In this document: positions 1 through 57,489 of the stretch, in pieces
Layout of the letters: each line of letters starts with the position of its first letter
Position numbering within the stretch: the stretch's first letter is position 1
From: Fragum whitleyi
Lineage: Eukaryota > Mollusca > Bivalvia > Cardiida > Cardiidae
Assembly (NCBI GenBank): GCA_948146395.1
Contig: OX411555.1
Location: forward strand, 59,272,187-59,336,186
Length of the DNA stretch: 64,000 nt
Direction of reading: 5' to 3'
The notes under the pieces: generated by a model
Databases searched by the model: none
Seen by the model: only the letters and a program-made list of their open reading frames with translations
Told to the model about the DNA's origin: nothing
Made by a program: the position numbers and the translations under genes

Positions 1-28
1 ATCGCAATTCTGCTAGAGGATCTCATTA

Positions 29-34577: not shown

Positions 34578-34586
34578 ATATATGAG

Positions 34587-34756
34587 ATGGACTTTGGACA
34601 TTTATTGATGCTACTAACGTTGTCTTCAATGTTCATCACACCAGAAGCATGTTGGTATAAATTAGATGATTGTATCGAGGAACAGATATGTGGTGGACAG
34701 ATGTGCTTTTTTGGGCGTCGGGTAGGCACATGTCAAAGGAGAGGAATCCTTTGCAG
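34587..34756 (+). CDS. Cys-rich secreted peptide gene 1, core exon
   Basis: The exon starts at an acceptor ('tttcaacacag', exon from 34578); the start is ATG 34587, because translation there gives a clean signal peptide (M-D-F-G-H-L-L-M-L-L-T-L-S-S-M-F-I-T-P-E-A) where an upstream in-frame ATG-like start would not. It is followed by C-W-Y-K-L-D-D-C-I-E-E-Q-I-C-G-G-Q-M-C, then G-T-C-Q-R-R-G-I-L-C, and the exon ends two bases into a codon at 'tgcag|gtacac'. The exon at 39740 supplies R-C-Y-I-R and a tail. Seven cysteines; core spacing C-x5-C-x4-C-x8-C-x6-C-x-C. The mature part is arginine-rich, secreted and small, like bivalve antimicrobial peptides, but CX4C in place of CX3C does not fit the cysteine-stabilised alpha-beta defensins. 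Function is inferred, not shown. Confidence 0.82.
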
Positions 34757-35039
34757 GTACACGATAGATGCTCAATTAAAGTCCCGACAACCCGCCAAAT
34801 TTAAGAAATCTGTGTAACTCATACATACAATGCACACAAAAAAGTATCACAAAACTTAAATCAAGGACCAATAAAAATTCTTTCAGTAAAGAAAGGATAT
34901 GAAGTTCATCAGGCATTTGCAAGTTTCTTTTGGTCGCCAAGTGGATGCTCTGAAGCCTCCTTTTCAATTCTGATACTGGCGTAATATGTGAGAATTAACA
35001 TTTATTCAAATTACAATTAATGAAATTTCAGGCACTTTG

Positions 35040-36240
35040 TAAAGAGAAAATTACAAGAGGACCATGGTGGTCATATATCTGAGCTCCAATTTTTTTTTCA
35101 ATTTCCTTCGAGTTTTAGTCATATACAGGAACAACACAGAGCTCTAACTTCCAATATAAGAATGAAAGGTACTGTAAATTGTTTTGCAAAGTCAATGAGA
35201 AACAAAACTACAAACATGAAAACGTCTATTGACTAAGACCCTCTATCACATTTATTTAAATATGATCCTACGGCATGGGGATTATTTCGATTTAAGGATA
35301 ATTTTTCAATCATTTATTTTAAGAAATTGAATCAATGCTAAAACAAAACCTAGAAAGACTATCAGGCCTGAATGTAATAAAGGAAAGATTTCTTTATATT
35401 AATATCTGTTTAAAGAAAGGAATCCCAACAACAAAGGCTAAGTTTTGATCTGAAAGCAATTGACAGTGTTATGTAATGGGCAATATGGCAATTCTCTAGG
35501 TAAAATTTGAAGGATTCATCCCCTGCTGTTTAGAAGGAGAATATATTGGCACTTCTTTCTGTTTTATTCTTATGAAAATTAGGGACCCAATATAACAGGG
35601 CTTTTTATCAAGTCGGCACACTTATTTAACCTATTCTTGCTTAATAGTCCTCAAACGAAAGGTAATGCCAATTATCAGAGTTATAAGTAAACTTGTTTAG
35701 AAGTTGAAAATTTTGTTCTATATCTTTCATAGGGGAGTCCAAAACAAAGTGCTTATTATAATGTAAGAGCATTTTTTGTTAAAGGGTGTAACGTAAATGT
35801 GTCATGCCAAATAAATCAGTTTTGTACAATTTTGGTTTGGAAGTAGGAGATTTTAAAATATTTTGAAGTGCTTTATTTCTTTTTAAAAGCTGGGATCCTA
35901 CAACAAGGGACCAATTTTTAAGATAGAGTTATCCTATACAGTATTTAAGTAGACAAGCATTGGGTAATGCTCAATACCAAATATGAAAGATCTAGCCCAT
36001 ACGGTTTCGGAGAATTTTTTAAAAGTTTTTTAATAAGTTGAAATTGCAACAAAGTCCTTGATGGATTCCATTTTCGTGAAGTATTCTGAAAGCCTCTGCC
36101 TTAAAGGATTATTTCTGTGAAGTTTGGTTGAAATCTGCTCGATAGTTTGGGAGGAGAAGACTTTTTTAAAATCGTGGTCAGACGGACGGACGCCGGACTT
36201 TGATCGATCACAATAGCTCACATTGTGCTTTAATTTACTT
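35040..36240 (-). repeat. Long degenerate interspersed repeat
   Basis: Bounded by 'acaagaggaccatggtggtc' and 'cgatcacaatagctcacatt', with the internal 'tgtgaagtttggttgaaat' and 'tcagacggacggacgccgga' motifs typical of this bivalve repeat type. It lies in the gene 1 intron. No coding content. Confidence 0.6.
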
Positions 36241-36432
36241 TAATTCACTTTGGCATCAATCGCTTACTCTATTACCTGTTTTTTTCTTACTTATCCATTC
36301 GATTTCAAGACAGAACGTTCCTTACAACCATTGAATAATCAAGTGTTATCAAACTAGTCGAGGAAATCAGTTGGCGTTTGTTGGCGCTAACGCATAACAA
36401 GATTACATTGCAAACCCATAAAACTCACTTTC

Positions 36433-37088
36433 ATGTTTCCCGGTCAATTCGATAAAAGTAACCTTCCTCATGAAGTTACTCACCCTAAAAAGTTTCAAGA
36501 GAATGACTGTGGACCTTCAGCCTATGTTGTTGGGAGAATTTCTTATGTACAAACGTCAAGACGGATTAAAAAAAAAGATCATTGCAAACAAATAGGTCTG
36601 ATACTTTACTTTTCTGCTTTATTTACATGTGTATTGGTATGGTTCTCCAAAATTGGTTGAAATTAAGAAAGAATATAACTGTCAAATGACAAAATTTCAT
36701 CAAACATGGATGTTTTTTTGTTACTCTATGTAAGCATAAAATTTTCAACTGGGATAATGAAAACAATATTTTTGAAAACTCGTCCAAAAATGTCCACGTG
36801 CACTGCCGACAGATTGAATCTTCGTCCCTTATTTTTCATGAAAATGAGGTAAAATCGACCCCACATTATTTCCTCTCAATTTTGTATGTAAATTTAGATG
36901 AGATTGTGGGTATTCCACTGCCTTTCTCGAGTGAGTGTTTGTGTGTTATGTTTGTGAAAACCAGAAAAACGCACAATTATGGTAAATCGATGTCCAAAGC
37001 TATTTTATCAAATACTTTAAACGATTTGATACCAAATTTTGTTCCTATGCCAAGGAGAGGTCAATTTCTGTCAGATAAAAATATATAA
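36433..37088 (+). pseudogene. Possible decayed type II membrane protein gene, unidentified
   Basis: A frame from ATG 36433 has a hydrophilic start, a basic cluster (R-R-I-K-K-K-D-H-C-K) and a helix (I-G-L-I-L-Y-F-S-A-L-F-T-C-V-L-V-W-F), ending in a stop at 36658-36660. About 130 bp on, a second frame (roughly 36790-37088) runs C-R-Q-I-E-S-S-S-L-I-F-H-E-N-E and ends R-R-G-Q-F-L-S-D-K-N-I-stop. Together they look like the ends of one short membrane protein broken by a frameshift, or two exons without convincing splice sites. No family recognised. It lies in the gene 1 intron on the same strand. Confidence 0.3.
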
Positions 37089-39739
37089 GTATTTATTCAG
37101 CTAAATAATGAAATTAGCGATTTCATACTTGTGTAAGGTGTGTAAAATCGTGTGTCCAGTTTCAGGGTAGTAAGTTTTACCTGATTCTTAAAGGGGTTTC
37201 TTTTTTGTTTTTTGCTGTTCACAAATTGATCAAATTGGCCTTAAAATGTCATATTTTAAGCTGCAATCCAATTAAGAAACCTAGGTACTTAAGTTATTCT
37301 TAGACAGTTTTTTAAATAATGTCACAAAAAGAACAGTGAATTTCGTTACCGTTTTGAGGATGATATAGAAACGGTTTCGAACAACCATAAGGAAGTGATA
37401 ATATGCTAAAAAGCTCCTCATATGATACAAATTTATTTTAGCTCTCTATATGGTTGTCCGAATTTCCTAAAGAAATTGTCTTCCCCACTCTAAAGTAGAC
37501 TTTCCTTTTTCAAGAAATAGAAGTGAACTACGTTATCGTACATATCTGCTTTAAGAAGTAAATGAATTTAATCCTGACTTTTGCCAGTCAAGGTTTGAAT
37601 TGTACCTTTCAGCATAAGTTTGTAATCATACGGTTGTATCTAAAGCACACATTCATAGACTACAATAAATCAGTTTTAGTGAACTATGTCATTGTTAACT
37701 TCGTTACTAAATTAAACAGTAAATTGCACTTTGCATCGCATTTTGCATAAAAAATACTCTTGAAACTGTTTCAGCCATCAGTGTAACACACAAGGTGTTC
37801 AACCTAAACAAGAATTACAATGAGATTATTAGGCTAGTACTTAAAACTAATCAAGAGATGCCGCAATTAATACAAGGTCGAATGAAGCTTGAAAATTGGT
37901 ATGGAGATATGTTGTTGAAAACACATGTATGCCTTTAATGCTAGCTTGGATCACTCCTATAAACATAAGATAGACCTGTATGGTGAATCTTTTGATTAAA
38001 CAACAATGAATCACAGTGCTATCTGGTGACGTAGATCACACCTCAGGTAACGTAGTTCAATGGTAGAAATATGTTTTTGATATTGTTAGTAGAAGAAATT
38101 CTGTAGTCTAAATATTTAAATACTACATACATAAATTATAAAACCAAACAAAAATCCGTAATTTACAAATGACTTTTATCTTAGCGAGGATAATAAAATA
38201 GGTATGTGGAAAAAAAGCATACATTTTGTTAAACTATGGGGATTCATTCAAGAACTTATATATACACACATATATATATATTTTTTTCAATTCTATGTTG
38301 TAAAACTATTCAAATAATATTTTTTACATGAACAGAAACTTTTTGCTTGGTGTTTGACAAAATTTAGGGCGTAAAAGACATTATAAAGCATATAAATTTT
38401 GTTTTCAACTTGGCGTCCCCTTCCACTTTACTACTTGGCTTTTGTAAAATTGCAATGTAAGAAAAAAACAAGGTTGAATTTGACTGATTATCTAGCAGCC
38501 AAGGAAATAAAATTTGATTCAAGGCTGAAATCCTTATTATGATAAAAAAAAAAATATTTTCATATAAAACCTGAGTTTTGATAATTTTTCATGAAATAAT
38601 TTCAGAATCTCAGTTAAAGGGAAACCATATACTTCAATTGTGTTTAAAAACAGGTTAGAAAATGATTTGGAGCATATAACATATGGTAAGAATAACATAA
38701 TCATAAAAATAATTCATTTGAATCGAAAAAAAAGTTAGTAAAAACTCAAACAAAATACATATATTATTACATAAGTGGTAAACTACGTTACGGGACATTT
38801 TCTGTAAGAATCAGTGTTTTTTGGATTAATACTCTTTTTCAAAATCGCCAAATAAACTTTTTTACATTCAAAAAAATTTGCTAAGTGTAATAACAACAGA
38901 AGTTTAAATTCTTGTAAACAAGATAATGTTTTGTTTACTGTTTCATTGATTGCAAAAAATCTGACAAATCTGCATCGTTAATACTGTTTTGAATTGCAAT
39001 ATTGAAAAAAACATGAAGTGTGTATGACAGTTATTCAGTGTTGTATGTATAAAGAATATAGTTCACTGAAAATTAATCAAGAGAAAGTGGTTCTGGCTAC
39101 TTTTCTTCATTGTAAAATAGTCACTAGAATGTATGACTTAGTTGAATAACGTAATACACTGTTAAGATTTACCCCTGTCCTTCAAATTCGGATTAAGTAC
39201 ATTTTGGAAGGTCCAGAATATTTTTCAAAGATAAATTCTAGAAAATGAATATATAAGATTGAAAAGAGACAAAAAAAAATGAAAATCTAAAACAAAAAAT
39301 CTCTGTGACTCTTGATTGTGCGTTTTTCAGTTTTTTTAGTGTTAGGTGTATTAATTGTTTAAATAATGTTCTATGAATCATATGTGGTAACAATATGTGA
39401 TGATGATTTTATATTTGTTACGTCACGTGAAAAATCAACCGAATGCTATAGTGCCAGCTTTCATCGTACTGGATTTTTGAGCTAGTAGGATTGTGTCCGT
39501 ATCTCCCCTTAAGGCTTACTACCATACTATAAAAGTGTCAAATTTAGCAGGTACACCTAATCAATCTAAACGTAATATTATTTTCTTGGTCTTTTTTTTT
39601 TGCATAGGAAGTCTTTGTAACTCTTTGTTGTATTAATGTTATATGTTATCTCTGATTTTTCTACTTTAATGAATTCTCGAAACAAAATAACAATAAACCA
39701 TTGTTGCCAAAACTAATTTGGTACTTCTTTTAATTTCAG
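37089..39739. other. Gene 1 intron, no supported feature
   Basis: Strongly AT-rich. Homopolymer and TATA runs (for example near 38260-38285) but no coding or mobile signature. The intron ends in the acceptor 'tttaatttcag'. Confidence 0.5.
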
Positions 39740-39860
39740 GTGTTATATAAGGGGCTTAAGAAGATCTTTCACAGATTCTATTAGAAAGCAAGGGGAAATA
39801 ATCTTCACGATTCACAACATAAACAGCAGAGAAATAACAGCACCGATAAATAGAAAATGA
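39740..39860 (+). CDS. Cys-rich secreted peptide gene 1, last exon
   Basis: After 'cttttaatttcag' the exon's first base completes an arginine codon and is followed by C-Y-I-R-G-L-R-R-S-F-T-D-S and a tail ending A-P-I-N-R-K, then TGA at 39858. This supplies the last core cysteine and a 38-residue C-terminal extension, for a 96-residue precursor. Exon-3 counterparts at 46778 and 56651 start in the same phase with C-Y-I-R or C-F-I-T, which supports this pairing across a 5-kb intron. C-terminal extensions also occur in myticin and mytilin precursors of mussels; whether this one is cleaved is unknown. Confidence 0.78.
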
Positions 39861-40069
39861 TGTTGTAAACAATATTCGTTTATTGCAACATCAAGGATAT
39901 GTTCATAATAACTCAGAAAAATGAATTTTGTAATCGGTAATATCATCAATTATGACCTGGTATATACATCGTCGACAATTGCTAAACAGTGTTTCCGACA
40001 TAACATAATGAAGAAGAATGAAATCGGCTTGATTTTGGAAAGCTTCGAAAGATATCGTTATATTTTATT

Positions 40070-40725
40070 AACTCACCTCAGCACGAAGTGCTCAAGGTGA
40101 GCTTTTGTGGTCGAGTGATGTCCGTCGTGCGTAGTGTGTCGTGTGTCGTCAACATTTACCTTGTAGACTCTCTAGAGGCCACATTTTTTGTGGTCAAAAT
40201 TTGGTCAGAATGATTGTCTTGATGAAATCTCGGACAAGTTTGAAAGTGGGTTAAGTGGGGTCAAAGATGAGGTCACGTGGTCAAATCTTGTAGACGCTCT
40301 CAAACCCGTATTTTTTGCTCAATTAACCTGAAATTTTGTCAAAATGATCGTCTTGATGAAATCTAGGTCAAGTCCGAAATTGGATCCAGTGGGGTCAAAA
40401 ACGAGGTCACTAAGTCAAATTAAAGTAAAACCCTGTAGACACTCTGGAAGCCATATTTTTTGCTCAATTAATCTGAAAATTGGTCAGAATGGTCATCTTG
40501 ATAAAATCTAGGTCAAGTTTTAAATTTGGTCAAGTGGGGTCAAAAACAAGGTCACGGGATCAAATTTTAGAAAAACCTTGTAAGCAGTGTAGAGGCATCA
40601 TTTTTTGCCCAATCAACCTGAAATTTGGTCAGAATTCCTCTTCCTTTCCAAGTCTACTTTAAACAATTTTTGACAGTTCACTCAGGTCAGCGATTTAGGG
40701 CCACTATGGCCCTCTTGTCATGCAA
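40070..40725 (+). repeat. Long bivalve interspersed repeat
   Basis: Same architecture as 4125-5145: the 'gcacgaagtgctcaaggtga' start, a 'gtgtgtcgtgtgtcgtcaac' tract, about four internal units with 'ttggtcagaatg' and 'ggtcaagtggggtcaaa', and the end 'agggccactatggccctctt'. The internal unit differs from the 4-kb copy, so this is a different subfamily. Confidence 0.85.
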
Positions 40726-41760
40726 TGAAGTCTGTATTGACATGATATTACCTGTCTGATAACAATACATGATATCAGGCAGTCCATTTAGAAACAATTT
40801 GTTTGCACTTTCGCCCTAGTTTCTTTGATTGTAAAGGGTTTATCATAATTAAGCGCTGAAAAATGATTGCATGTAAATAGAAAAACGCGCAAGTGTCTTG
40901 AAATACCAATGCTAACTGGTCTCGGCTGCAAGAAATTATCATGACGAGGCTTTGAAAGATTCTCCCAACCTCGACCAGATAACATTGATATTTTAAGATG
41001 CTGACATGCTATTCTCTATTTAGCGTTGAAGCATTACGTCAATGATGTAATATTACTACTATGCCGTGCATCTAAGTGTCTTTATTTTGCACTAACGACT
41101 TTTAAGTACTACAATGACGTAATCAATGTCGCAATTTCTATTCATTACTTTCCGATAGCAGGTTAAATAGAAACGACATCATCCGAGAAAACACGAGTTT
41201 TGCCGACCTCAAAAATTATAACGGATGGACTATTTGCAACGCGTAACACTATTTTTGAAAAGGATTTGTGCATTTCTAAGGATTGTTAAGAAACTTCCGA
41301 CGATCTTAGCGGAGCGTTAGTGAAATGATATATTATTAGTTAAAATTACGAGACAACAAAAAATAATAAAACGCAGTATAAGACCGGAACTGTTCAGTTT
41401 TCTAATTAGAGTTGTTGCTTGCGGTTGAATCCAATGTAAGTTTGGTCGCTTGAATCAAAGTCGATGTTTACATGGCGACCCAAGGTAGCATTACTGAATT
41501 TTTTTAATTTTAGTTTTGATTTTTCATTGGAAAGCCGACATGTTGAAAACATGAGATTGTTCAAGATGCACCGGTATACGAATAAGTTCCCCCAAAACTT
41601 GATGCTCTTACTAGATTTTCCAAGTAAAGTGTTATCACCAAAATCGTGGAATATTCATTTAACGTCTGCTTCCATTTGTTGCGCTAGTTGCACAGTGAGT
41701 GCAGGAAAGTTTATACGCTTCTCTCAAACAGCGGACTACCACTTATGTTGAGCACGAGCT
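40726..41760. other. Intergenic, no gene
   Basis: No supported feature. A frame at 41464-41751 has no domain or splice context. Confidence 0.45.
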
Positions 41761-41761
41761 A

Positions 41762-41818
41762 AACGGGGTATAATTGGAAATGTTTTTGTACCGTTTTTTG
41801 ATCCAGAACGCAGGGCAG
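41762..41818. repeat. Half copy of hairpin MITE M2
   Basis: The stretch 'aacggggtataattggaaat' and 'gatccagaacgcagggc' matches the right half of the M2 elements; the left arm is absent or deleted. Confidence 0.65.
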
Positions 41819-42770
41819 GTATGTCGGATATCTGCTACCTGTTTTATGACTTAAGTATATTTTGGGACTTAAAATAAGACATTCAGGTCGCATTTTGTAG
41901 TATCACATGGAGGTACAGTACTATGTTTGCCGAATTCAGATCCGTCTGATATCTACTTGCAGTTTTACAACGAAATATATTTTCTTGATTGTACTTGATC
42001 TTGTACAATCATTTTTTTTTTTTTTCATTTTCTTTTTGTTGCACTTTTCTCTAAAACTGTGAATCTCAGCACATGTAATTTGAAACCTTTAAAAGGCATC
42101 AGACGTTCTATACGTCGCTTTCTGAATACAGGACCGTTAGATTTATTTTCCTGTTTACTATATTCTATGGCTTAACATACTTTAACAAGACACATATAAA
42201 ATGTTGGTATTTCAAATATTTTTAGCTTAAAAGAAACGTTTCAGTAGTTTTTGGACGTCCAGTTATCATGAAGTAACTCGTGAAGGAGATTAATCCACTT
42301 AAGTTTCAAAGAACCATCGTGAATTATTTTTATACAACACGTCGCGTAAAATGTTACAATCTGGGAATAGCTTAAATACGTAAAACTTTTAGAAACAAAT
42401 CGAATATGAGGTCAGTCAGTGTATTTTTCAAAACAAATACATAAAAACGTACTAAGTAGACGAGAGTAAAGACCACTTGGTAGAACGCAAGTGATAAAAC
42501 ATATATATGTGTATAGGCGTTGAGTTTCAGACCTAAATGAATTCGTAAAATAAAACAAAACAATAACAAACAAAAACACAAAAAAAACAAAAAAAACCCA
42601 ACAACAACAACAAAAAAACCCCCCAAAAAAACCCCATCCTCCATGTTTTAAAAGAATGAGCCATTCCGGCTCACGACAACATTCAAACTCTGGTTAGCCT
42701 CGATTGAAAAAAAAAGAAAAAAAAACCAACTTTTTTTTAGATAAGGAGTCTCAATTTAGACAGACTGGTT
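41819..42770. other. Region upstream of peptide gene 2
   Basis: Contains an A/C-rich low-complexity stretch at 42547-42640 that creates a spurious minus-strand frame. No TATA box as clear as gene 3's: the equivalent position reads 'ggttcaaaagag'. Confidence 0.45.
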
Positions 42771-42847
42771 CAAAAGAGAAGTGTTTTATCATTTACAAGA
42801 TTCGTTGAAAAGCGCGTAGAAGTACACAATTGGTGAAGAACTAACTG
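42771..42847 (+). other. Gene 2 putative 5' untranslated exon
   Basis: The block 'aaaagagaagtgttttatca' to 'gaactaactg|gtaagt' aligns with 52389-52469 upstream of gene 3: shared 'aaaagagaagtg', 'agtacaca', and the donor followed by 'tttattttraa'. It contains no coding frame. With an acceptor just before each start codon, this indicates a non-coding first exon spliced to the signal-peptide exon at 45369. The exact transcription start is not determinable. Confidence 0.6.
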
Positions 42848-42894
42848 GTAAGTCATTTTATTTTGAATCATTTATAACATTTTACACGAGTAGG

Positions 42895-43170
42895 TCGTAT
42901 TTTAGCGGTATCATATCTGTTTGTCTATCCGTCCGTCTTTTCGTCCGCCCAACTGTTCCTCCATTTTTGTCAAAACATCCCCTCCTCCAATTATTGATGG
43001 ACTTGCATAAAACCGCCATAGATTGTCATCACGGGGGATATATCGCCACCGTAAATAGCTCAAAATCGAAGTACGTAAACACAATATGTCACCGAGGGTA
43101 TCTAATGAAGTTCAGTGATAAGATCAAAGCTGAAATGCTTGGAAAAATCTATACTCTGTGATTTCTATCG
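42895..43170 (+). repeat. Interspersed repeat with 'gtccgtc' tract
   Basis: Motifs 'tttgtctatccgtccgtctt' and 'aaacatcccctcctccaatt' recur near 43,970-44,060 and 61,010-61,140. This is a widespread non-coding bivalve repeat type; here it lies in the first intron of gene 2. Confidence 0.55.
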
Positions 43171-43449
43171 ACGGATATCCTTGGCTTAAGTTATTGGCAA
43201 TATTATTTTCATACAGTAGAGAAAACGATGCGTACCAGCATGAAATATGCTACCGGTTACCAGCAAAAGGTGGGTAGATATTATTCTTATTCTTGGTCGT
43301 TTCATCTATACTTGAAGTGAATTTCCTCGTGTTTGTTGTGATTTCTAGCGTAAAACAAAGCATCATTTAAACATATAATCTTCGTAAAATGTTCGACTTT
43401 AAGATGTAAATATTGAAATAATTGTGAGGTATACTGAAAATAGAAGTTG

Positions 43450-43725
43450 GGGTAGGGCAAGGGCGTAACTCCCATTCCGCAAATCACGCAAGTGCGTAAA
43501 AGAAATAATTATCAGCTGTAAAACGTCGATGATGAATGATCAGAACATCGAAACTAAAGCTTATTCAAGCTGTATTTACGATGTTTTGTTTATTCACTAA
43601 CGCTCAAATCATAAAAAAGGAGCGGATGGAGGGCATTCATGTTTGTCACATTCCACATATCGCCTTTATCCTATATATTCCTTGTTTGTCGGTTGAGTGC
43701 GAATAAATTTTGAAGTCCTAGATAC
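43450..43725 (+). repeat. Interspersed repeat, partner of 12245-12520
   Basis: Contains 'cacgcaagtgcgtaaaag', 'aagcttattcaagctgtat' and 'cactaacgctcaaatcat', the reverse complement order of the copy at 12.3 kb. No coding content. Confidence 0.65.
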
Positions 43726-44878: not shown

Positions 44879-44917
<39 letters not shown>

Positions 44918-45368: not shown

Positions 45369-45370
45369 AG

Positions 45371-45546
45371 ATGGACCAGCATGCCCGTTTCTTGTTGCTA
45401 CTGATATTGACCATAATTTTCATCGCCTCAGTAGAATCTTGGTCGTGGTATAAACTAGATGAGTGTAATGAGGAGCAGATGTGTGGAGGACAGATATGTT
45501 TTAATAGGCGATTCGGGACATGTCGAAGGATAGGCGGCATCTGCAG
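45371..45546 (+). CDS. Cys-rich secreted peptide gene 2, core exon
   Basis: The exon begins at 45369 after 'tttttattag'; ATG 45371 opens a signal peptide (M-D-Q-H-A-R-F-L-L-L-L-I-L-T-I-I-F-I-A-S), then S-W-S-W-Y-K-L-D-E-C-N-E-E-Q-M-C-G-G-Q-I-C, F-N-R-R-F-G-T-C and G-G-I-C. It ends at 'tgcag|gtatgc' two bases into a codon. The W-Y-K-L-D-x-C, E-E-Q-x-C-G-G-Q and R-x-G-T-C motifs are shared with gene 1, about 10 kb upstream. Six core cysteines; spacing C-x5-C-x4-C-x7-C-x6-C-x-C once exon 3 adds S-C-Y-I-R-V. The donor lies at the edge of an M1 MITE inserted at the TA of GTA. Probable secreted host-defence-like peptide; activity is inference. Confidence 0.85.
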
Positions 45547-45548
45547 GT

Positions 45549-45992
45549 ATGCAGTTAATAACATCGTGAAATTGACAAGGTGAATGATTTTGGATTGATT
45601 TAGGAATGAAATTGAATGTGTATGTTGAGAGAGTTTTGAGTGAATTTAATGGGAAGTAATCCTATATCGCAAATTTTGTTCAGGATGAACAAAATTAGCT
45701 ATTTTAATTACCTCTCTTTAATCAAATATACGTACTTTTCTCTTTGTACATCTTCATGGACCAATCTGTCGCTTGAAAATCCACACCATCTAATAAAATC
45801 GTAGAATGAATAGATTGATTTGAGTTACTGATGAAAGTCTTGAATGATTTTTGAATGTTTTCTATTGATTTCGGAGCGTTTTTGATCGATTTGAGTGAGT
45901 GTTTTGAATAATTGAAAGAAGTGCTGAGTGAATGATTAAGAATGATTTTGATCGGAATGATAGTCAATTTCACGATGTTTTTAACTGTACTA
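45549..45992. mobile_element. MITE family M1 copy at the gene 2 splice donor
   Basis: It starts three bases into the intron ('gtatg|cagttaataacatcgtg') and ends 'tttcacgatgtttttaactg' followed by TA. All internal landmarks are intact. A decayed copy occupies the same place in gene 3, so the insertion predates that duplication. It supplies most of the intron's first 440 bases while leaving the donor GT usable. Confidence 0.85.
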
Positions 45993-46039
45993 GGGCTTTT
46001 CAACAAACACCAAAACCAAACCAATAAAATGTGATGCTT

Positions 46040-46490
46040 GATTACAATTAAAAACATCGTGACATTGTTATGTGAATGATTATGGAATTACATAGGATAA
46101 AATTGAATGAGTGTGACGAGTGAGTATTTAATGAAATTAAAGGAGGGCAATCAAGTATCGCTAATTTTATTCGAGATGAACAAATACGGGTTATTTACTA
46201 CATCCCTTTAGTAAAATATGTATGCAATACTATAAATAGCTTTCTATGTATTCACAAACAAATCAGACGCTTACACAATAAAATAAGATCAATGACATCT
46301 TAGAGGGTTTTTTATCGATTTTAAATATGTGAGTAGTCGTTTATCACCCCCTTCATTAGTGATTTTGGAGTATTTTTAATGGTTTGAGTGAGTGTCCGGA
46401 ATGAATAATATGAGCGCCGAACAAGTGTTATAAATGGTTTTGATCTTTTTGAATGTCAGTTTCACGATGGGATGAACCGTATCTAAAAAT
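46040..46490. mobile_element. MITE family M1 copy, second in the gene 2 intron
   Basis: Left 'caattaaaaacatcgtgaca' and right 'gtcagtttcacgatgggatg' ends, with 'gatgaacaaatacggg' and 'gaatgaataatatgagcgcc' inside. More diverged than its neighbour. Confidence 0.7.
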
Positions 46491-46777
46491 TTAGGCAATT
46501 ACTTTTTTTTCAAGACCTCGAATAAGGGTTAGTTTTTACCAGAATTGTTTTAAATATAAATTTGTTTTATATATAAATTAACGAAAACATCAACAACAAC
46601 AACAAAAAAAAAATAGTAAATTTGGTAAAAAAAAGAAAAGAAAAAACAGTTGGTCAAATAATTGAATATTTTACACATGCTCAAGGTGTGACAGATAAAC
46701 ACGAGAGTTCCTTTGAATACTGCTACTAATCTTAAATGCTTTAAGTATTTCTACCCATTTGTTCTGTATCATTACAG

Positions 46778-46796
46778 TTGTTACATAAGAGTTTGA
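46778..46796 (+). CDS. Cys-rich secreted peptide gene 2, last coding exon (short)
   Basis: After 'tatcattacag' the first base completes a serine codon; C-Y-I-R-V and TGA follow, giving a 64-residue precursor. The final core cysteine is retained but the tail found in genes 1 and 3 is absent. Read one base out of register, 46795-46986 is open for 63 codons and begins E-V-I-D-S-G-K-E-V-I-I-N-V-D, similar in spacing to G-E-I-I-F-T-I-H-N-I-N of gene 1. The tail was therefore probably lost by a small indel near 46791-46796. The peptide core should be unaffected. Confidence 0.72.
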
Positions 46797-47229: not shown

Positions 47230-47640
47230 TCGATTGGTCACGAAGTGCTCAAGGTGAGCTTTTGTAATCGTCCAATGTCCATAGTGCGTCGTCATTCGTG
47301 CATCGTCCGTCGTCCATCATTCTTGAAACATCTTCTCCCTCTAAACTGGTTGGTCAATCTGGATGAAACTTGGCAGGGATTTTCCTTGGGTCAAGTTCTA
47401 TCAAAGCTGTCAATATAAATGCAATCCATCCTTAACTCTCCCTTAACCCGTAACAAAAAGGGTGAAAATAGAAAATCTTCAAAATTTTCTTCTTTGAAAT
47501 CAGACAGATTTTATATTTGGTTTGTAGTATCATCTAATAGGCCTCTACTAAGTTTGTTCATATCAAGACCTTGGATCATATTTGGGTTCCACCCAAAATC
47601 TAAAACCAGAGGGCAGGCAATACCTGGACTCATCGGTGAA
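47230..47640 (+). repeat. Long bivalve interspersed repeat, partial
   Basis: 'cacgaagtgctcaaggtgag', then 'gtgcatcgtccgtcgtccat' and 'atgaaacttggcagggattt'. Same class as the copies at 4 kb and 40 kb. Its 3' part runs into a Tc1 transposase fragment. Confidence 0.7.
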
Positions 47641-47880
47641 TAGCATGGGGCGCCAGCGTCTTATACGCTAGTCAGCGTGGTCCAATACCAATGTTTACCG
47701 ACGCCGACAATGAAGTCGGGACCGCGGAATTCGAATACGTGGTCTTCTTCACACCGGGTTATGTTCTTGCAGCCCTGTTCGTATGGTTTCAGTCGAAACT
47801 CGCACTCCCGAGGCGTTTTGAAGGTCGGAACGTAGCTGCGTTGCCGTAGCAAACATGTTCCTTCATGACTTAGTGATGGC
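47612..47880 (-). pseudogene. Tc1-like transposase fragment
   Basis: On the minus strand: Q-L-R-S-D-L-Q-N-A-S-G-V-R-V-S-T-E-T-I-R, an HTH-type segment, then R-R-P-R-I-R-I-P, and after stops P-M-L-F-T-D-E-S-R-Y containing the first catalytic aspartate. In-frame stops (after N-P-V and R-R-R) mark it as dead. It differs from the element at 32-33 kb. Confidence 0.8.
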
Positions 47881-48999
47881 TATAGTGTCGCTATGAAACG
47901 ATACAGAATGGAAATGTTATTATTACATGAAACTAAAATGCAATATCCATCGTCTTATGGGAGGTTTACCTCCGGATGTAAATAAGGGTTTTATTGGTGG
48001 TCAAAGGACAAACGGGCCGATTTCAAAAATAACAGAAATGAAAGACAGTGTATTGGTGATGTTTTTGGTATCATTCCTCGAAGTCTTCATACTTAAAGTC
48101 GTTCCAAAACCATGAGTGAATAACGTCTGAACTTAACACCCATAATTGTTTTGAAGTTATCCTTACTTTGATGAAATTAAAGAATAAATATTCGATGGTA
48201 ACAACGCCTCTCCATGACGTCACAAGGGGCCTCTCGAGCGACACCTCTAGTGGAAGCAAATCAATTTAATATGGGATAAACGTTGCTTTCAGTAGTTTTA
48301 CATGTGAAGTTCTTGTTGTTTCTAAGGGCACAGCTAGGACATTTCATCTTAACCACCAGTCGCCCTTCTAAGTTAGGCGTGGGAGACAAATAACACTTAT
48401 CACAATGACATTTGTCAAATATGGGATGAAATATGGCAGAGCCGGAGATCTAACCCACGACCACATGATTTAGCGACTGTCCTTACCGGGCTTGGCAGGT
48501 CTAAACCAAGATGTTAAAAAGTGAATTGCTTGTCCCGAGTTTCCAAACTTAAGAGTGGCCTTAAACATACAAGCAAGCTCTATGCTTACTCGTAGTCCTA
48601 TTTCTGCCTTTCTTCATTTTCTGTGGCATACCCGTTTCAATACAAATGTGCAAACATTTTTGTCTTTTCGTGCCGATGCTACGGAATGAGTGTGACTGAA
48701 TAGCAAAAAGCACCCAAAATGAATTTTGGGAAGCTCAACACGAGTATGTGAACAAAACCTGAAGTGAAAACGCATTAGCCCGGGCTCGCTTCAAGCGCAC
48801 AAAATCTTGCGTCTATGTAGTTTTTGTCGTTAGCCAGACTAGCACATGTCAATCAAGTTGGCGAAAAGTCACTGTAAGTCAGCGGAAACAGACCAAGAAG
48901 TATGTAAATTTTCTGTTTTCCTAAGTATATTTCGTTAATTTTGTTTAACCCAACATCACCATGATGAATGTGAATACATGCACCCGTGTTGATACCAAA
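47881..48999. other. Intergenic, no gene; possible decayed SINE
   Basis: Around 48330-48500 a stretch ('gccggagatctaacccacga') could be a reversed, decayed B box, but the element cannot be delimited. Confidence 0.35.
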
Positions 49000-49200
49000 T
49001 CCGAAACATTGATCGGACATTCGAGTGAAATTATAGGGGAGGTAATCCAACATCACTAATTTAGTCCAGGATGAACAAAATAATCGATATTTATTACACC
49101 CCTTACGTACAAGTTCTATAAATGACTTCATATCTCTTCAAGGACTATCAGACGCCTATGATTTGATAATGTTAGTGAAATTACTGTTATATCTAGGTTT
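49000..49200. mobile_element. MITE family M1 fragment
   Basis: Central portion only: 'gggaggtaatccaacatcac', 'gatgaacaaaataatcgat' and 'gactatcagacgcctatga'. Both termini are missing. Confidence 0.65.
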
Positions 49201-50490
49201 ATTAATTTGGGGACGTTTCTACGTCACCCAGTGTTAGTACTACGCGAGAACAATCCTGTCAGTTGTAAATAGCTTTTCAAAAAAGGAGTATCGGCTTTGA
49301 TTCAATTTTCTATTTTACAAGACTAACCTCCGCTTGACAACTGTGCATGTTGAAAATGGCACAGTTGTTCAAGAATTCTATACAATTAGAATATTAATCA
49401 AAGACATCTATTAAATGCGAAATCATCTGTTAATTCTAGACCACTCGAATTTTTGTTTCGCGCAAGAATTCTGATTATAGACAAGGCTTTGATTCGCCTT
49501 TTGGGTTTTCCCGTGGTGTAAAGGGGATAAAAACTAGATGGCTGGACAAGTATCCCGCATTTACATACTCGGATTTTAGGAAGATCTCACACTAATGCAG
49601 AACTTCTTGGGTCTAGGTCACCTCGGTCACCTCAGGAATTTTGCTGATTTTAGGGATTGTGATAAGAAGGTCGTAAATCGCTTGTATTACTATAGCGAGT
49701 TAGGACACTCTGATCTCGAACACATAAAAGTCAACTTTTGACAATCTCCTATGTTTAAACACTTTTACTACGAAAGGAGCCTAAAATATAAGTCATTTAC
49801 TATCAGTTGATGGGTCTTTCAATAACAAATTGGACATTTTAATATCTTTCTAGAATTAATTAAAATACGACAATGTACATGTATACATATATAACTGGAA
49901 GCCTACTCCGCTTTACTCGAATTACCCTTTAACCAGTGTTTCCGCGTAAGGGGGACATTGGCTCTTTCAAAGTTTTTTTGGGGGGAGAAACGCTCAACGG
50001 AGGCACAAGTGCAATGTTTTCTACGCGTATCATCTCCAGTGATCAATCCTGTACACTTTTCAGAAATTTTGCGTTTGTTCGGGTTGTAGCTTCAATGTCG
50101 TAACTCAGATAAAGCTATACGGGGAATTAGGACATTTTTATCACAAACATCTAAAATCGATTATTAACTCAGTCCGCGGTGTTTTCTTAAAAATAACTTA
50201 AGGAAAGCTTAAATTGAAGTCTTCAGGTCCACATTGAGATGTTCTCCGCTTTTATTTCGGGTAGACAATATGTGTTTTTTGTTAACTTATATATCTTTAC
50301 GTCGTCTAATACAGACAATCGCCTTATCGTATATTTAGGCAACTCAAATTCCACTGGGTCAAGGCATACTTCCGCCGATTAAAATTCCGTTGCGGGGGCT
50401 GCGAGGAACATTAATTCGCACGACGCGCGGTCTACGTTTCGCATCTTTCTGTTATTTACACTTCGGTTTGTTTTCTTCTTTCTTTTATTG
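49201..50490. other. Intergenic, no gene
   Basis: Nothing supported; one G run near 49978-49985. Confidence 0.4.
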
Positions 50491-50492
50491 CA

Positions 50493-50722
50493 TGGGCAGA
50501 CTTCACGAAATAGCCATATTTTTTACCGGACAGTGGGTCTGTCAAACTTTAGATTTTTACCAGACCGAACAAAATTCCTTCAGACATAATGATGGGACGC
50601 ATTGTGTTTGTGGCTGGATTTTACCAGTCAGTCGGTTCTGTATTCATGTGCAACTTACCAGACCGGCATGATTTTTACCAGACATGTCAGTGGGACCGGC
50701 GGTATTTCGTGAAGTCTGCATG
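50493..50722. mobile_element. Short TIR element with repeated TTTTACCAGAC motifs
   Basis: Inverted ends 'gcagacttcacgaaatag' and 'gtatttcgtgaagtctgc' bound 230 bp; ATGG lies on both outer sides as a probable target duplication. Inside, 'ttttacc(a/g)ga(c)' recurs about five times (near 50521, 50555, 50618, 50656 and 50671). The frame over it (50390-50671) is not a gene. Confidence 0.75.
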
Positions 50723-51498
50723 GGTAACGGAAAATGATTGCATTCGCAAAGAAGTCTCCTGACGTGGATATTAAAGAGCAATTCCTTCCGAGATGGTTCA
50801 CCCAAAAGGGGAAATACTCAGTGCCTTTCTCGGGAGGATTTTCGCTTTACCGAGCCCGGAGATCAAATGACGTCAATTACCGTACGTGATGTACGGAGTT
50901 ACGACATTGATTCTCCGGACAACTTCAAACAATAAAGAGCCATTTTTGGACATGCATACATTGTCTACATCTAAAAATGTGATGTATTTTCCATTGAATT
51001 AGACCTGACTATAGCGGTCCCGCGAAAAGCGTATTTCTAATCAACCGTTCAACCCAATTTTAAGATATTTAGAACAAGGGCGCAAGAACAATGCATATTA
51101 ACCCTTTATTTTTTTGACAATCTCTAGGCCTTTTATTTATTTTTTGTTCGAGAAAAAATATGAGACGAATCGGAACAAGCAAAACAGTGTCTTGCAATTC
51201 ATGTTTTATCGAATACACTACATTTACATAAAGAATTGTAGGCCCTATGTGTTTTGAGACATAGAATTTCAATGATATCATTAACCATGAAGCCGCAGCT
51301 GCATTTGCGAGATTTCATTTGTTCCTTATTAATATAGTTGTTTGGTGCAATTTGTGATTATTTACATTAAAGTTACTAATCTATCACGAATTCTCATTAG
51401 CACACTTTAAGTTACTTTTAAACTTAGAGTAAATCTTATATAAAATGTGAAGCAAACAGCTCATGCGGATTGAAGAGGGTCGGATGCCCCTGATTATT
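50723..51498. other. Intergenic, no gene
   Basis: No supported feature. Confidence 0.4.
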
Positions 51499-51650
51499 AT
51501 TTGACCCGCCATTCAAAAAGGAACGATCTGGGTATTGCTCAAAATAATTATTTGAAAATGCGACCTCTGGTTGACCGCTATTGGAACCGATCTATTTTTT
51601 TTTCAATTTTTTTCGGGTGCTCCTTTTTTTGCGTGACGGCTCGCACATAT
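51499..51650. mobile_element. TIR element M6, partial
   Basis: 'ttgacccgccattcaaaaag', 'gcgacctctggttgaccgct' and the end 'tttgcgtgacggctcgcac' follow 29386-29648, with an internal deletion. Confidence 0.65.
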
Positions 51651-51899
51651 TTCATAAATCAAATAAACCTAAGATGTTAATGTCCTATTCCATTCGTATT
51701 TTGAACCGTAAACATAGGCTTAACAAAAAGAAGTAAAAAAAAGTTTGCATTAACATTGAAACTTGTCGATTTTGGGTCGAAACATTTTACATTTATCACA
51801 TTTTACGTGGATAATTTCTTTTCGTCTCGTTTTATTTTCACCACAATGCCACCAGAAACGTCCACTTCCAGTGCTTTAAGTTCTTTGGTTATAAAGATG

Positions 51900-52062
51900 T
51901 TGCTGATCTTATCATTTTACTGACTTTCGAGTGATTTTGAATGATTTTGAGTGAGTGTTTGGAATGAATGAATGTAGCGCTGAGTCAGCGATTAAGAATT
52001 GTTTTCATTGAGATGAATGGCAATGTCACAATGTATTTACTGTAAGCGTTTACGATGTAGAT
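51900..52062. mobile_element. MITE family M1, right-end fragment
   Basis: 'gtgtttggaatgaatgaatg', 'agcgctgagtcagcgattaa' and 'ggcaatgtcacaatgtattt' match the right third of the complete copies. Confidence 0.7.
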
Positions 52063-52384
52063 AACTGTAGATATCTTATTGATGTTCATCCCATTTGGTG
52101 TACCTCTTGTACCTCAGGGTAAGAGATCAATGTCATTTAAAACTTGTATAGTGATTGGTCGATACATTACTGATGGATTTCAAAACCATTTGATAACATA
52201 TTCTTCATTTTGATTTTATGTCCTATGTTAAATAATTTTACATTTTTTTCAAAGTTTAAGGCCAAAGGGGAAATTCTCAGTTTGAGCTTGTACACAACTG
52301 GATGGTTTCAAAAAGGTTTGGTACAATTATTCTCCGGAATGAGAAGAATTTACATTTAAATGGCTAGGTCCTTTATATGACACG

Positions 52385-52392
52385 TATTTAAA
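52385..52392 (+). promoter_or_regulatory. TATA-like box of peptide gene 3
   Basis: TATTTAAA immediately precedes the conserved 'agagaagtg' block that begins the paralogous 5' exon. Gene 2 has the degenerate 'ttcaaaag' at the aligned position. Confidence 0.45.
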
Positions 52393-52469
52393 AGAGAAGT
52401 GTTGTTTTATATTGAAGATTTTTTAGAAACCGAGTTCAAGTACACAGTTCATGTAAAGAGATGTCAAAG
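52393..52469 (+). other. Gene 3 putative 5' untranslated exon
   Basis: Aligns with 42771-42847 of gene 2 ('aagagaagtg', 'aagtacacag', then a donor and 'tttattttaaa'). Here the donor reads 'tcaaag|gttagg', weaker than gene 2's 'gtaagt'. It contains ATGTAA, a minimal upstream start-stop. Splicing to the exon at 53283 is inferred. Confidence 0.55.
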
Positions 52470-52552
52470 GTTAGGTACTTTATTTTAAAACGTGTTTGCC
52501 ATGTGCTTTTATTAATCTAGGGATGGACTTTCGTACTTAACTATCGAACAGT

Positions 52553-52928
52553 TTTTAACATCGTTAAATTGACTCTTTTCTCCGATCAAACCTTTTTTTA
52601 AATCACCAAAATCAGCGCTACATACATTGATTCCAATCACTTATTCTGTTGACTCAAAAACTCTCCAGGCTCGATAAAAAAGCTAGAAAATTGTTCATGA
52701 CGATCAACATTTCATCAAAATCAATCATTTTTTATCGGATGTAGATTTCAAAGCGTCCGATTAGCCCGGAAAATACAGAATCAGGGAATGCGTTGATTTG
52801 GACGAAATTATCATACTGTATTGTCTCTTCTTAATTTTATTCAAAAACTCACCCCCAACCCATTCAATTTCATTCCAAAAACATTCCAAAACCATTCAAC
52901 TTGTCAATTTCAAGTTGTTACCTGTTAC
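52553..52928. mobile_element. MITE family M1 copy in the gene 3 first intron
   Basis: Left 'ttttaacatcgttaaattga' and right 'cttgtcaatttcaagttgtt' ends, with degenerate family landmarks inside. The frame from 52821 is a by-product. Confidence 0.65.
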
Positions 52929-53297
52929 ATGACTTATGTTTTAACATATTTCTTCCTCAAATGCATGTCTCAATCAAGGATTAAATACAATGCCTTACAA
53001 CTGCGTCAGGGAAGGTCTGTTTTGCCCTCGATCAACATTCCACAAATTAGACGAGGGTACTGGTGATTTTTCCAGGAAACGGAATTGAGAGAGATTAATC
53101 TAAGTTGTTAGAACTTGTTTTCCAATCGATGGAAAGTAAATAGGTTTAAACCAAAGAGAATGTATTCTTTTTCATTTTTGCCCTGTTTAGTTTAACCAAT
53201 TAAATTCCTACGATTAAAAGCTAATCTAATTTAAGTGCTGTGGAATTATTTAAAGACAGTCTAATGTTAATCTTCATTACAGTAATTCGGTTAAGAT

Positions 53298-53464
53298 ATG
53301 AGACATATATGTATTGTGTGCTTATGGATTGTTTCTTTGTTAGTCTTCGTACAGACAGCCTGGCATAAACTAGACCCATGTATGGAACAAACTATGTGTT
53401 TCAGAGCGGGATGTCGTATTGGTAATAGATACGGGAGATGTCGCATTATTTGTAATGTGTGCAG
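53298..53464 (+). CDS. Cys-rich secreted peptide gene 3, core exon
   Basis: The acceptor 'cttcattacag' lies 15 bases before ATG 53298. The frame gives a signal peptide (M-R-H-I-C-I-V-C-L-W-I-V-S-L-L-V-F-V-Q-T), then A-W-H-K-L-D-P-C-M-E-Q-T-M-C-F-R-A-G-C, R-I-G-N-R-Y-G-R-C and R-I-I-C-N-V-C, ending at 'tgcag|gtaaat' in the same phase as genes 1 and 2. The W-x-K-L-D-x-C start, C-x5-C-x4-C-x8-C spacing and R-x-G-x-C are shared, but the fifth gap is split by an extra cysteine (C-x3-C-x2-C-x-C), giving seven in the core. It is the most diverged and most arginine-rich member. Secreted; function unknown. Confidence 0.83.
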
Positions 53465-53780
53465 GTAAATATAATAAAACTATGAAATTGAAAATATGAA
53501 TGATCATGAATGAGTGTATGGAGCGAGTTTTGAATGAAATTTAAGGGAGATAATACACTATCAATAATTTGTCCGAAATGGACGAAACTAACGGTATTGA
53601 CTACCTCCCTTTGGAAAAAGTTACGTACTTTTATATAAAAAATATACCTTCTAGTCTTCTCGAACTAATCAGTTGCTTACAAAAACAAGAAAAATAGTGA
53701 ATTTCGTAGATTTTTTTAGCGATTTAAATTTAGGTGTTGAATTATTTAATTGAGTCTGGAGCGTTTTGGAAAGGTACATC
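53465..53780. mobile_element. Decayed M1 MITE at the gene 3 splice donor
   Basis: The intron opens 'gtaaatataataaaactatg' then 'gaaattgaaaatatgaatga', followed by 'gggagataatacactatc' and 'gactacctccctttgg', the family's order. The start coincides with that in gene 2. The right end is eroded. Confidence 0.7.
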
Positions 53781-53833
53781 TTACTATAACACTGGATGAA
53801 TCTTAACACCTCCTCGCAAAATACTAGTACTTA

Positions 53834-54730
53834 CACAGGGTATAACGTGCCACGCCGACACCAGAAGGTTCGTGGACACCTGATCGATTTTTTCGATACG
53901 GAACTAACGGTGAAGCAACTTTTTGACTGATTTATAAACCGAAATAATCATTTTCATTTCAATTTTAGTATCACTGTCGAGATAAATGGTTCGTCTTTAG
54001 GAAATAAAAGTAGAGGGTGAAAACTAAGCCAAATGAGCGAGTTCTAGCCCTAGGAGTGAGTGACTTTGCTCGTTTTTTTCAGGTTTGTCATTATTTTTTT
54101 GTCAAACAACCTGACAATTCTTAATTGCTTGTGATTGTCTAAAAGTATTTATGTGTCCTCTACACGCATACCAAATTTCTCGGCGAAAGATTCACATAAA
54201 GCGAAGATATTCGTACTTCTATTGGCCTGGGTAGCGGAAAATATGATAACAAGACACCTCCTATCACAAATTCTGGTGTCGATTTCCAATCGAAAGAAAT
54301 TCAGGGGGTGTCTAGTTACCATATTTTTCGCTATCCAGGCCAATAAAAGTACGAATATCTTCGCTTTATGTGGATCTTTTGCCGAGAAATTTGGAATGTG
54401 TGTAGAGGATACATAAATGCTCTTAGACAAACACAAACAATGAAGAATAGTCAGGTTGTTTGACAAAAAATTAGCTATAAACCTAAAAAACGAGCAAAGT
54501 CACTCACTCCTAGGGCTAGAACTCGCTCATTTTGCTTAGTTGTTACCCTCCCCTTTCATTTCCTAAAGACGAACCATTTATCTCGACAGTGGTACTAAAA
54601 ATTGAAATGAAAATGATTATTTCAGTTTACAAATCAGTCAAAAACTTGCCCCACCGTTAGTTCCGTATCGAAAAAATCGATCAGGTGTCCATGAACCTTC
54701 TGGTGTCGGCGTGGCACGTTATACCCTGTG
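53834..54730. mobile_element. 897-bp foldback element with CACAGGG ends and 5-bp target duplication
   Basis: The left arm from 'cacagggtataacgtgcc' is mirrored by the right arm ending 'ggcacgttataccctgtg'; arms of about 440 bp are roughly 90% or more identical around a centre near 54280. ACTTA flanks both sides directly. The opposing frames at 54135-54416 and 54149-54466 encode the same peptide because of the palindrome and are not genes. Transib/RAG-like and hAT5 transposons make 5-bp duplications, so the class is open. Confidence 0.85.
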
Positions 54731-54964
54731 ACTTATCAAGGCGAACAACTGTGCAAAGTTATCGTAAAATATATCCATAAATCAAAAGTTATAAAAGAAT
54801 GAGACATGTGATTCCACGAAACACCTAGCAATGCATACACACACGGATTTAGGTAACTCTATATGTCCAGGTACTTCCAAGGCGAGGCGGCATATAACAA
54901 AAGGACCACGAATGTCCTATATCGCTCACCTTCGTCCCATAAAAATTTTGAATACCTAAAGCAG

Positions 54965-56208
54965 ATGTAATGGCCATTAAAATTAAACGAGTTGAATGAG
55001 CTAGTTTTGGATGATATTATTGTGAAGGAAATACAACATCGCCCATTTCGTTCATGTGAACGAAATAAGCTATTTTATACCCTCCCTTTAATAAAATTTT
55101 TATTACTTTTTGATAAATCTATACTCTTCAAAAAAGTTCTTTGACACTGATTAAGCATACGATTTTTCTTAGTTCATGTAAAAACTTCGATAAAATTGGT
55201 TGATTTGTGAATAGTAATTAGAATGTAAGAATTTCGCATGTAATTGCGATAAATTACTCGCTAACGTTTCTCGACAGAGACGCCAACGTCAAATAACGTA
55301 AAATCTGAATTCTCATTCAGCACGTGCTGTTCCAGATTAACTGAATAGTCCTGATAGCTCTCAATTGTGTTGTGGATGATATGCCCTTGCTTGATTGCTT
55401 TTGCAATTGAACGTCTAGGTACACACCGGTAATGAAAACAAGTCAAGCGAACGGAGGAACAACGCCATAAAGTTTTTCGTCGCCACAAAGCAAGCTCTAT
55501 AAGACAAGCCGTTGCAATTGACTTTGTTGTTTCCGGACGGACTATCTCGTACCTCTGGCACCGATAAAACATGCTCCACAGCGTTATGTATAGAGCCTGA
55601 TCAGTCTGACGCTGGATTACAACTTTCGTCCAGGACGTCGAATGACGTAACGATATTTGGGATTTTTCAATCTAACTACTACGTCAAAAAATACTTAGGT
55701 CCCCTGTCTAAGTAGGATCTCTGGTGAGAAAGTGTGAAACCAGATAAGAGAGGTCAATTTTGCCACTATAAGACACGTACGACGTAACGTCTTTAATTAA
55801 CGTCTCTTTTACAAATCTTTTACAAAAAAAGTAATTTTGTTTTAATACAGTGTGTAGGTGCTTTGACCTCACCTTCATTGATTGACTTTGCTCGTACATA
55901 TGGATATTTATGTCAAAATTAAAATCTGCATATAGATCAAATGTCAAAGAACTTTTTTTGAAGAGTATATTTGTATCTCCTCATCAATTGGACGCTTTCG
56001 AATCAATACCAGATAATTAAAACAATGAATGATTCGAAATATTTGAATAAGTTTTTTGACCATTTGAACCGTCCTGGGCGATTTCGAATGATATTGGAAA
56101 GTTTTTGAACGATTTGTCTTAGTCGTTGAAAATCCAGAACTGATTGCTGAGTGCGATTTAGAATGGTTTTGATTGGGGCGAGTGACAACCTCACGATGTT
56201 TATTCATT
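54965..56208. mobile_element. MITE family M1 split by a younger Tc1-type element
   Basis: The left half (to about 55121: 'ataccctccctttaataaaa') and the right half (from 55969: 'caattggacgctttcgaatc' to 'caacctcacgatgtttattc') are consecutive pieces of M1. The inserted element is annotated separately. Confidence 0.7.
55122..55968. mobile_element. 847-bp element with Tc1/mariner-type inverted ends
   Basis: The ends 'tactcttcaaaaaagttctt' and 'aagaactttttttgaagagt' are near-perfect inverted repeats with TA on both sides, as expected for Tc1/mariner insertion. It is too short for an intact transposase. The internal minus-strand frame (55572-55261, 103 codons, W-R-R-K-T-L-W-R-C-S and R-C-V-P-R-R-S-I-A-K-A) shows no DDE motif I can recognise and may be filler. 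Confidence 0.75.
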
Positions 56209-56372
56209 CGGAACATCGCTCGGACTTTTCCGTAAAATGGAAAGTACCTCGGACGTAAGTGTAGTAATTTTGGTCAATTTTAAGGCAATTCGGCTCCTGG
56301 TGGTACTTTGGTTAATACGCTTGAAGAAAAGCAAATTCCTTTAATGCTCTCAGTTCGTCTATGGAGATCATT

Positions 56373-56441
56373 TTGGCGTATTATAATTTGAAACCAAAAC
56401 GCAGTAAAACACTGCGTTTTGTTTTCAAATCATAATATGCC
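56373..56441. repeat. Short perfect hairpin
   Basis: The left arm 'gcgtattataatttgaaacc' plus 'aaaacgcagt' pairs with 'actgcgttttgttttcaaat' plus 'cataatatgc' around a 'aaaac' loop, about 200 bp before the last exon of gene 3. Confidence 0.75.
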
Positions 56442-56650
56442 CAATTTTTACCTTACGTTGATTTTGCTTTTCGCAGCGCCATCCCCAGTTGTGTTTGTGA
56501 CGTCACATAAACCCACGTGCGAAATGACGCGCTTTCATTGCAGCGCTCGTATTATTTCCGAGGTCTATTCAGTAGAATCGCCGAGGGTTCCCGATTGGAT
56601 GTTAATTGTTATATCTTGGGTTCATTCATGTTGAAATTTTGTCTTTGCAG

Positions 56651-56771
56651 ATGTTTTATAACGCGTCCAAATGATCGACTACGGCTTTTGGTAGAAAACG
56701 AAGAAACTACCAACACAAATATAAAGGCCATTTACAGACAAGGAAACGAAAGAACCATTGTTTTAAAATAA
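56651..56771 (+). CDS. Cys-rich secreted peptide gene 3, last exon
   Basis: After 'ttttgtctttgcag' the first base completes an arginine codon, then C-F-I-T-R-P-N-D-R-L-R-L-L-V-E-N-E-E-T-T and an end R-T-I-V-L-K before TAA at 56769. This gives a 95-residue precursor whose 38-residue tail has the same length as gene 1's. The tail starts basic and turns acidic (V-E-N-E-E), as in the C-terminal propieces of mussel myticin and mytilin precursors. An AATAAA overlaps the stop region (taaaataaaac), the only plausible polyadenylation signal seen in the cluster. Confidence 0.8.
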
Positions 56772-57486: not shown

Positions 57487-57489
57487 TTT

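Follow-up and report, generated by a model that had tools for sequence, protein, structure and literature searches.

Three short + strand genes in a 64,000-nucleotide stretch of the genome of the bivalve Fragum whitleyi (assembly GCA_948146395.1, contig OX411555.1, positions 59,272,187 to 59,336,186; hereafter the window) possess homologous cysteine-rich cores whose residues have been retained beyond what a mutational null produces. We put about even weight on the reading that they are linked duplicates encoding small, secreted, disulfide-folded, defensin-like host-defence peptides. The family is plausibly divergent and lineage-restricted, and looks like an undescribed side branch of the defensin-type immune peptides. 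The genes extend over 34587-39860 (gene 1), 45371-46796 (gene 2) and 53298-56771 (gene 3), positions read directly from the sequence, with the following predicted exons.

34587..34756, + strand: gene 1 coding exon, leader and cysteine core, donor CAG/GTACAC, core homologous to those of genes 2 and 3
39740..39860, + strand: gene 1 last exon, RCYI... tail, acceptor TTTTAATTTCAG, stop at 39858-39860, placed by motif
45371..45546, + strand: gene 2 coding exon, leader and cysteine core, donor CAG/GTATGC, placed by core homology
46778..46796, + strand: gene 2 last exon up to the stop, SCYIRV
53298..53464, + strand: gene 3 coding exon, leader and cysteine core, donor CAG/GTAAAT, placed by core homology
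56651..56771, + strand: gene 3 last exon, RCFI... tail, placed by motif

All exon and splice-site positions agree with those of an initial annotation of this DNA. Joining the exons would remove introns of 4983, 1231 and 3186 nt and give precursors of 96, 64 and 95 residues for genes 1, 2 and 3, respectively. The donor TGCAG/GTA is common to the three genes, and the ATGs are preceded by acceptor-like sites that end 9, 2 and 15 nt upstream, which bears out the range of 2-15 nt given earlier. As was also claimed, every last exon is entered in phase 2, ahead of the last cysteine, and begins with (R/S)-C-(Y/F)-I. Within 6 kb of the donors there are 30, 59 and 53 acceptor-like sites, at which a cysteine comes next in 2, 2 and 4 cases, so that the chosen last-exon acceptors are good, though not unique. 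A search for polyadenylation signals up to 600 nt from the stops gave a single ATTAAA for gene 1, another for gene 2 and no signal for gene 3; therefore, such signals do not support the genes. The statement that none of the genes is visible as a long open reading frame holds only in part, as the exon of gene 1 lies inside a 108-residue stop-to-stop frame (34491-34817).

If the donors were not spliced and the core exons were simply read through without a last exon, genes 1 and 3 would each have an even count of six cysteines. Gene 2, however, would then hold five, gene 3 would meet an immediate stop, and the GTA after TGCAG is common to all three while the next codons differ. A matching last-exon start also lies behind each core, and we consider the read-through extremely unlikely.

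The homology of the cores is evident from tblastn searches of the precursors against the window, in which the reciprocal E values were 2.8e-16 and 3.5e-15 for genes 1 and 2, 3.0e-8 and 2.6e-7 for genes 1 and 3, and 1.5e-7 and 1.0e-7 for genes 2 and 3; the best match outside the three cores and the genes' own exons had an E value of 0.62. A profile of the three cores recovered them at 1e-22 to 1.7e-22 among 3007 six-frame stop-free pieces of the window, the next piece scoring 0.027, and thus revealed no fourth copy there. Scanning the window for an ATG with a hydrophobic start and at least 5 cysteines in 40 residues returned exactly these three genes, whereas 30 Markov-resampled windows gave one match in total (29 of the 30 were empty). 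Outside the exons, DNA matches between the genes were confined to repeats and to the last exons of genes 2 and 3.

Constraint was assessed against random substitution. In the core, genes 1 and 2 are identical at 23 of 33 codons, an identity equalled in 0 of 2000 trials; the observed identity was reached in 15 of 2000 trials for genes 1 and 3 and in 9 of 2000 for genes 2 and 3. For the whole exon the corresponding counts were 4 (genes 1 and 2), 80 (genes 1 and 3) and 0 (genes 2 and 3) of 2000. Cysteines of the exon core are kept in 5/5 (genes 1 and 2), 5/6 (genes 1 and 3) and 5/6 positions (genes 2 and 3), a retention matched by 42, 0 and 9 of 2000 trials. The ratio of nonsynonymous to synonymous divergence (dN/dS) in the core is 0.25/1.16 for genes 1 and 2; the values of 0.58/3.57 (genes 1 and 3) and 0.51/1.13 (genes 2 and 3) are near saturation and carry no weight.

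The array common to the three cores is C-x5-C-x4-C-x7/8-C-x6-C-x-C with a G-x-C; the C3-C4 gap holds 8, 7 and 8 residues in genes 1, 2 and 3, and the C4-C5 gap is x6 in all. The core motif first proposed, W-x-K-L-D-x-C-x5-C-x4-C-x7/8-C ... C-x-C, is present in each gene, with the gap after C4 now set at x6. Invariant residues are W-x-K-L-D-x-C-x-E-x3-C-x4-C, followed by R-x-G-x-C and C-x-C-x-I, and C-x-C-(Y/F) occurs in all three genes. Six cysteines are common to the genes, while genes 1 and 3 carry a seventh at differing positions. The first half of the core is acidic (LDDCIEEQ, LDECNEEQ) and the second half basic, with net core charges of +3 (gene 1), +2 (gene 2) and +6 (gene 3).

Behind the cores, the pattern AGNTGYTWYATH has three matches on both strands of the window, all at the predicted last exons and one behind each core. 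The pattern was derived from these same last exons, and three or more matches also arose in 16 of 100 shuffles, so that only its placement is informative. The tail charge is +4 in gene 1 and +1 in gene 3, and gene 2, ending in SCYIRV, has practically no tail. In comparisons against random pieces, with those overlapping the three last-exon regions excluded from the backgrounds, the last-exon DNA behind the motif is similar between genes 2 and 3 (15 of 4000 pieces score as high), and the match of the tail protein uses another frame of gene 2 (13 of 4000). As the likeness runs in a shifted frame, the gene 2 tail seems to have been lost through a frame change with the core kept. The gene 1 tail shows no significant relationship to the others, either in DNA (scores as high came from 243 of 4000 pieces in the comparison with gene 2 and from 1264 of 4000 in that with gene 3) or in protein (1570 of 3867 with gene 3 and 1457 of 4000 with the shifted frame of gene 2). 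A shuffle test alone is weak for the tails, since tail pairs in non-coding frames passed it too.

The likeness of the gene 2 and gene 3 last exons only after a shift of frame, and the presence of repeats in the introns, among them the 0.9-kb inverted repeat of gene 3, would also suit relics, that is, duplicated gene fragments without expression. Three open cores with intact ATG, donor and acceptor and visible constraint make this very unlikely.

The repeats themselves are of several kinds. Within the gene 3 intron, 53834-54730 is a nested inverted repeat of ~0.9 kb with the look of a foldback element, whose arms show 95% (133 nt), 94% (116 nt) and 88% complementarity (188 nt). Mutually similar dispersed repeats, some of them inverted, occupy 45559-46469 and 51915-56201 in and around the introns of genes 2 and 3. 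Homology of these two introns was considered and rejected, the similar stretches behind the donors being repeats found elsewhere in the window; likewise, the likeness of 40082-40150 to 47239-47307, downstream of genes 1 and 2, is taken for a dispersed repeat.

In the defensin-like reading, linked duplication would have produced three genes for small secreted host-defence peptides. Each precursor would comprise a hydrophobic leader of ~20-24 residues (called by eye and with a hydropathy threshold, not with a signal-peptide program), a core of ~40 residues bearing the six common cysteines, and a C-terminal tail that varies and may be missing. This core would most likely fold as a short helix on a beta-hairpin carrying a gamma-core (G-x-C ... 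C-x-C), closed by three disulfides, and would act by binding microbial envelopes. For the three genes we infer splicing, secretion, fold, disulfide pairing and antimicrobial role alike. The reading draws on the homologous cores, on constraint beyond the null and on the fact that these are the sole such frames in the window. It draws further on the gamma-core with G-x-C and C-x-C-(Y/F), on the cysteine order and precursor plan of the mussel defensin MGD-1, and on net positive cores together with AlphaFold2 models. Two models of exon-only cores have a short helix spanning C1-C2, and towards their end short stretches are paired.

Several observations weigh against this reading. The number of cysteines is odd in genes 1 and 3, the core charge is modest, and the C2-C3 gap is x4 where MGD-1 has x3 between Cys10 and Cys14; the tails of genes 1 and 3 are not acidic, unlike the extensions of Mytilus and Trichomya mytilins. 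The AlphaFold2 models reach a predicted local distance difference test (pLDDT) of only 59.8 and 57.9, with the sixth cysteine absent from the modelled cores, and Foldseek found no match to the first of them. No sequence in the PDB, and so no solved defensin, matched gene 2 alone, and core profiles returned only weak PDB matches (best 0.29, further ones 0.86-2.9), no solved defensin among them. Finally, hhalign gave no alignment of the cores to a mytilin profile built from 11 of the 30 peptides in Table 1 of PMC7168163, a profile that recovers mytilin B in the PDB at 7.4e-13.

Other searches agree with the initial annotation that the family is unrecognised. The family library scanned, Pfam, held no match for genes 1 and 3 and a single sub-threshold match of gene 2 to a domain of unknown function (DUF) at 0.11. 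Two protein database searches returned no relative, the first giving 30 candidates of which none reached an E value of 10 or below and the second giving no candidate, a weak negative in view of the uncertain mollusc coverage of the database; the same search with a reverse-transcriptase-like frame of the window, run as a control of reach, gave 49 matches among 71 candidates. Six words from the cores did not occur in the literature searched, and the available excerpts of the surveyed literature do not name the array.

Secreted peptides specific to the lineage and serving in signalling or regulation would also be consistent with the modest charge, the acidic first half of the core and the lack of an acidic tail, and the Cys-rich family CRP-I of mussels provides a precedent without an assigned function (PMC10138031). 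The defensin-like cysteine order, the gamma-core and the basic second half of the core argue against such a role, which we regard as rather unlikely.

A defensin-like family would not be a new kind of biology. In mussels, secreted Cys-rich peptides are numerous and change rapidly, and gene finders easily overlook short split genes like these. The shifted cysteine spacing and dispensable tail would offer a further scaffold for antimicrobial testing.

Elsewhere, the window is AT-rich and repeat-rich. Two tRNA genes are predicted in it, ARAGORN and Rfam agreeing closely on their ends.

7342-7414, + strand: tRNA-Gly(TCC)
29019-29092, - strand: tRNA-Asp(GTC)

At 28-1218 (+) there are ~10 tandem copies of a 119-bp unit encoding what we take to be a thrombospondin type 1 (TSP1) sequence, downstream of an acceptor-like site. 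Six copies fit W-S-x-W-S-x-C, and the last (from 1145) runs to a cysteine-rich end before GTAAGC; the array has the appearance of an amplified TSP1 exon. At 56894-57489 a 297-bp unit is repeated twice in tandem and contains a GTTCGATCCCC box, suggestive of a tRNA-derived short element. The reverse-transcriptase-like frame (58451-58945, +; 164 residues) has 49 database relatives at up to 81% identity, three of them with PF00078 (reverse transcriptase), and no Pfam match of its own at E up to 0.1.

Among bivalve families, mytilins and pseudomytilins share with the three genes a small secreted Cys-rich core with a C-terminal extension, and a pseudomytilin of M. californianus offers a precedent for the truncated extension of gene 2 (PMC7168163). 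Mytilins differ in their array, C-x3-C-x3-C-x4-C-x11-C-x-C-x-C-x2-C, and in having four-exon genes (PMC7168163); the absence of these eight cysteines and of any hhalign alignment sustains the earlier view that the genes do not match mytilins. As for the general likeness to bivalve antimicrobial precursors that had been proposed, the core charges of +3, +2 and +6 are low beside Mytilus mytilins and inside the range for Perna mytilins, and the likeness of the tail is weak, the extensions of Mytilus and Trichomya mytilins being anionic and those of pseudomytilins weakly so (PMC7168163). Myticins, described with four intramolecular disulfides and a coding region in three exons (PMC5484132, PMC3164099), are set apart, as had been said, from the present genes, which share six cysteines and have two coding exons each, as far as described features allow. 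Mytilus CRP-I is likewise a multigene family of secreted six-cysteine peptides; its array, C(x3-6)C(x1-7)CC(x3-4)C(x3-5)C, dibasic propeptide site and mature peptide in the last exon differ (PMC10138031), and the three cores have no adjacent cysteines. Alternatively, the genes could fall within a family that has been named before, for example the myticofensins of Mytilus coruscus, compared here by description only. These are cited as three defensin-like families with a cysteine-stabilized alpha-beta (CS-alpha-beta) motif (PMC10138031), and myticofensin B, described as novel and defensin-like with one helix and two strands (table in PMC12055553), resembles the structure expected for the cores. 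We hold such membership to be possible but not probable.

CS-alpha-beta defensins generally have a C-x3-C spacing of the helix cysteines, and fold as a helix followed by two antiparallel strands, with two parallel disulfides from the helix to the last strand. Strict membership fails at the C2-C3 gap, because this gap holds the two helix cysteines and is C-x4-C in the three cores, which may nevertheless act as CS-alpha-beta peptides do. The cores have the six canonical cysteines in order, G-x-C and the terminal C-x-C, judged by the MGD-1 positions Cys4, 10, 14, 25, 33 and 35 (PMC5484132) and by a reference array, and agree with the gamma-core containing G-x-C and C-x-C described there (PMC5116183). 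The claim that spacing and order are unlike defensins was thus overstated: the order is that of the MGD-1 canonical six, with C2-C3 one residue longer. The gaps of MGD-1 are x5, x3, x10, x7 and x1, compared with x5, x4, x7/8, x6 and x1. The three genes share with the cis-defensins MGD-1 and MGD-2 the cysteine order, C1-x5-C2, terminal C5-x-C6 and a leader-core-extension plan, which in the eight-cysteine MGD precursor comprises 21, 39 and 21 residues (PMC5484132). They differ in shorter loops, in the absence of the fourth disulfide pair and in showing no significant sequence match.

The C-x4-C and G-x-C-x6-C of vertebrate beta-defensins fit the cores, but these peptides end with adjacent cysteines, which C-x-C does not fit. 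Big defensins and their beta-defensin-like derivatives also have six cysteines, and most big defensin genes have two coding exons preceded by a non-coding exon at the 5' end (PMC7203481). Unlike them, the three genes have no hydrophobic N-terminal domain, the core following the leader directly, and their intron separates the final two cysteines and is a phase-2 intron, instead of the phase 1 intron of big defensins (PMC7203481). Trans-defensins pair C1-C5, C2-C4 and C3-C6 (PMC7203481). A hitherto undescribed defensin-like scaffold in animals, combining the trans-defensin C-x4-C and G-x-C-x6-C with the cis-defensin terminal C-x-C and split by a phase-2 intron ahead of its final cysteine, is a doubtful proposition; if true, it would let the separation of the cis and trans defensin superfamilies be tested on a natural example. 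Solved disulfides would show how far a defensin array can drift, or whether the three peptides stand between the cis and trans classes.

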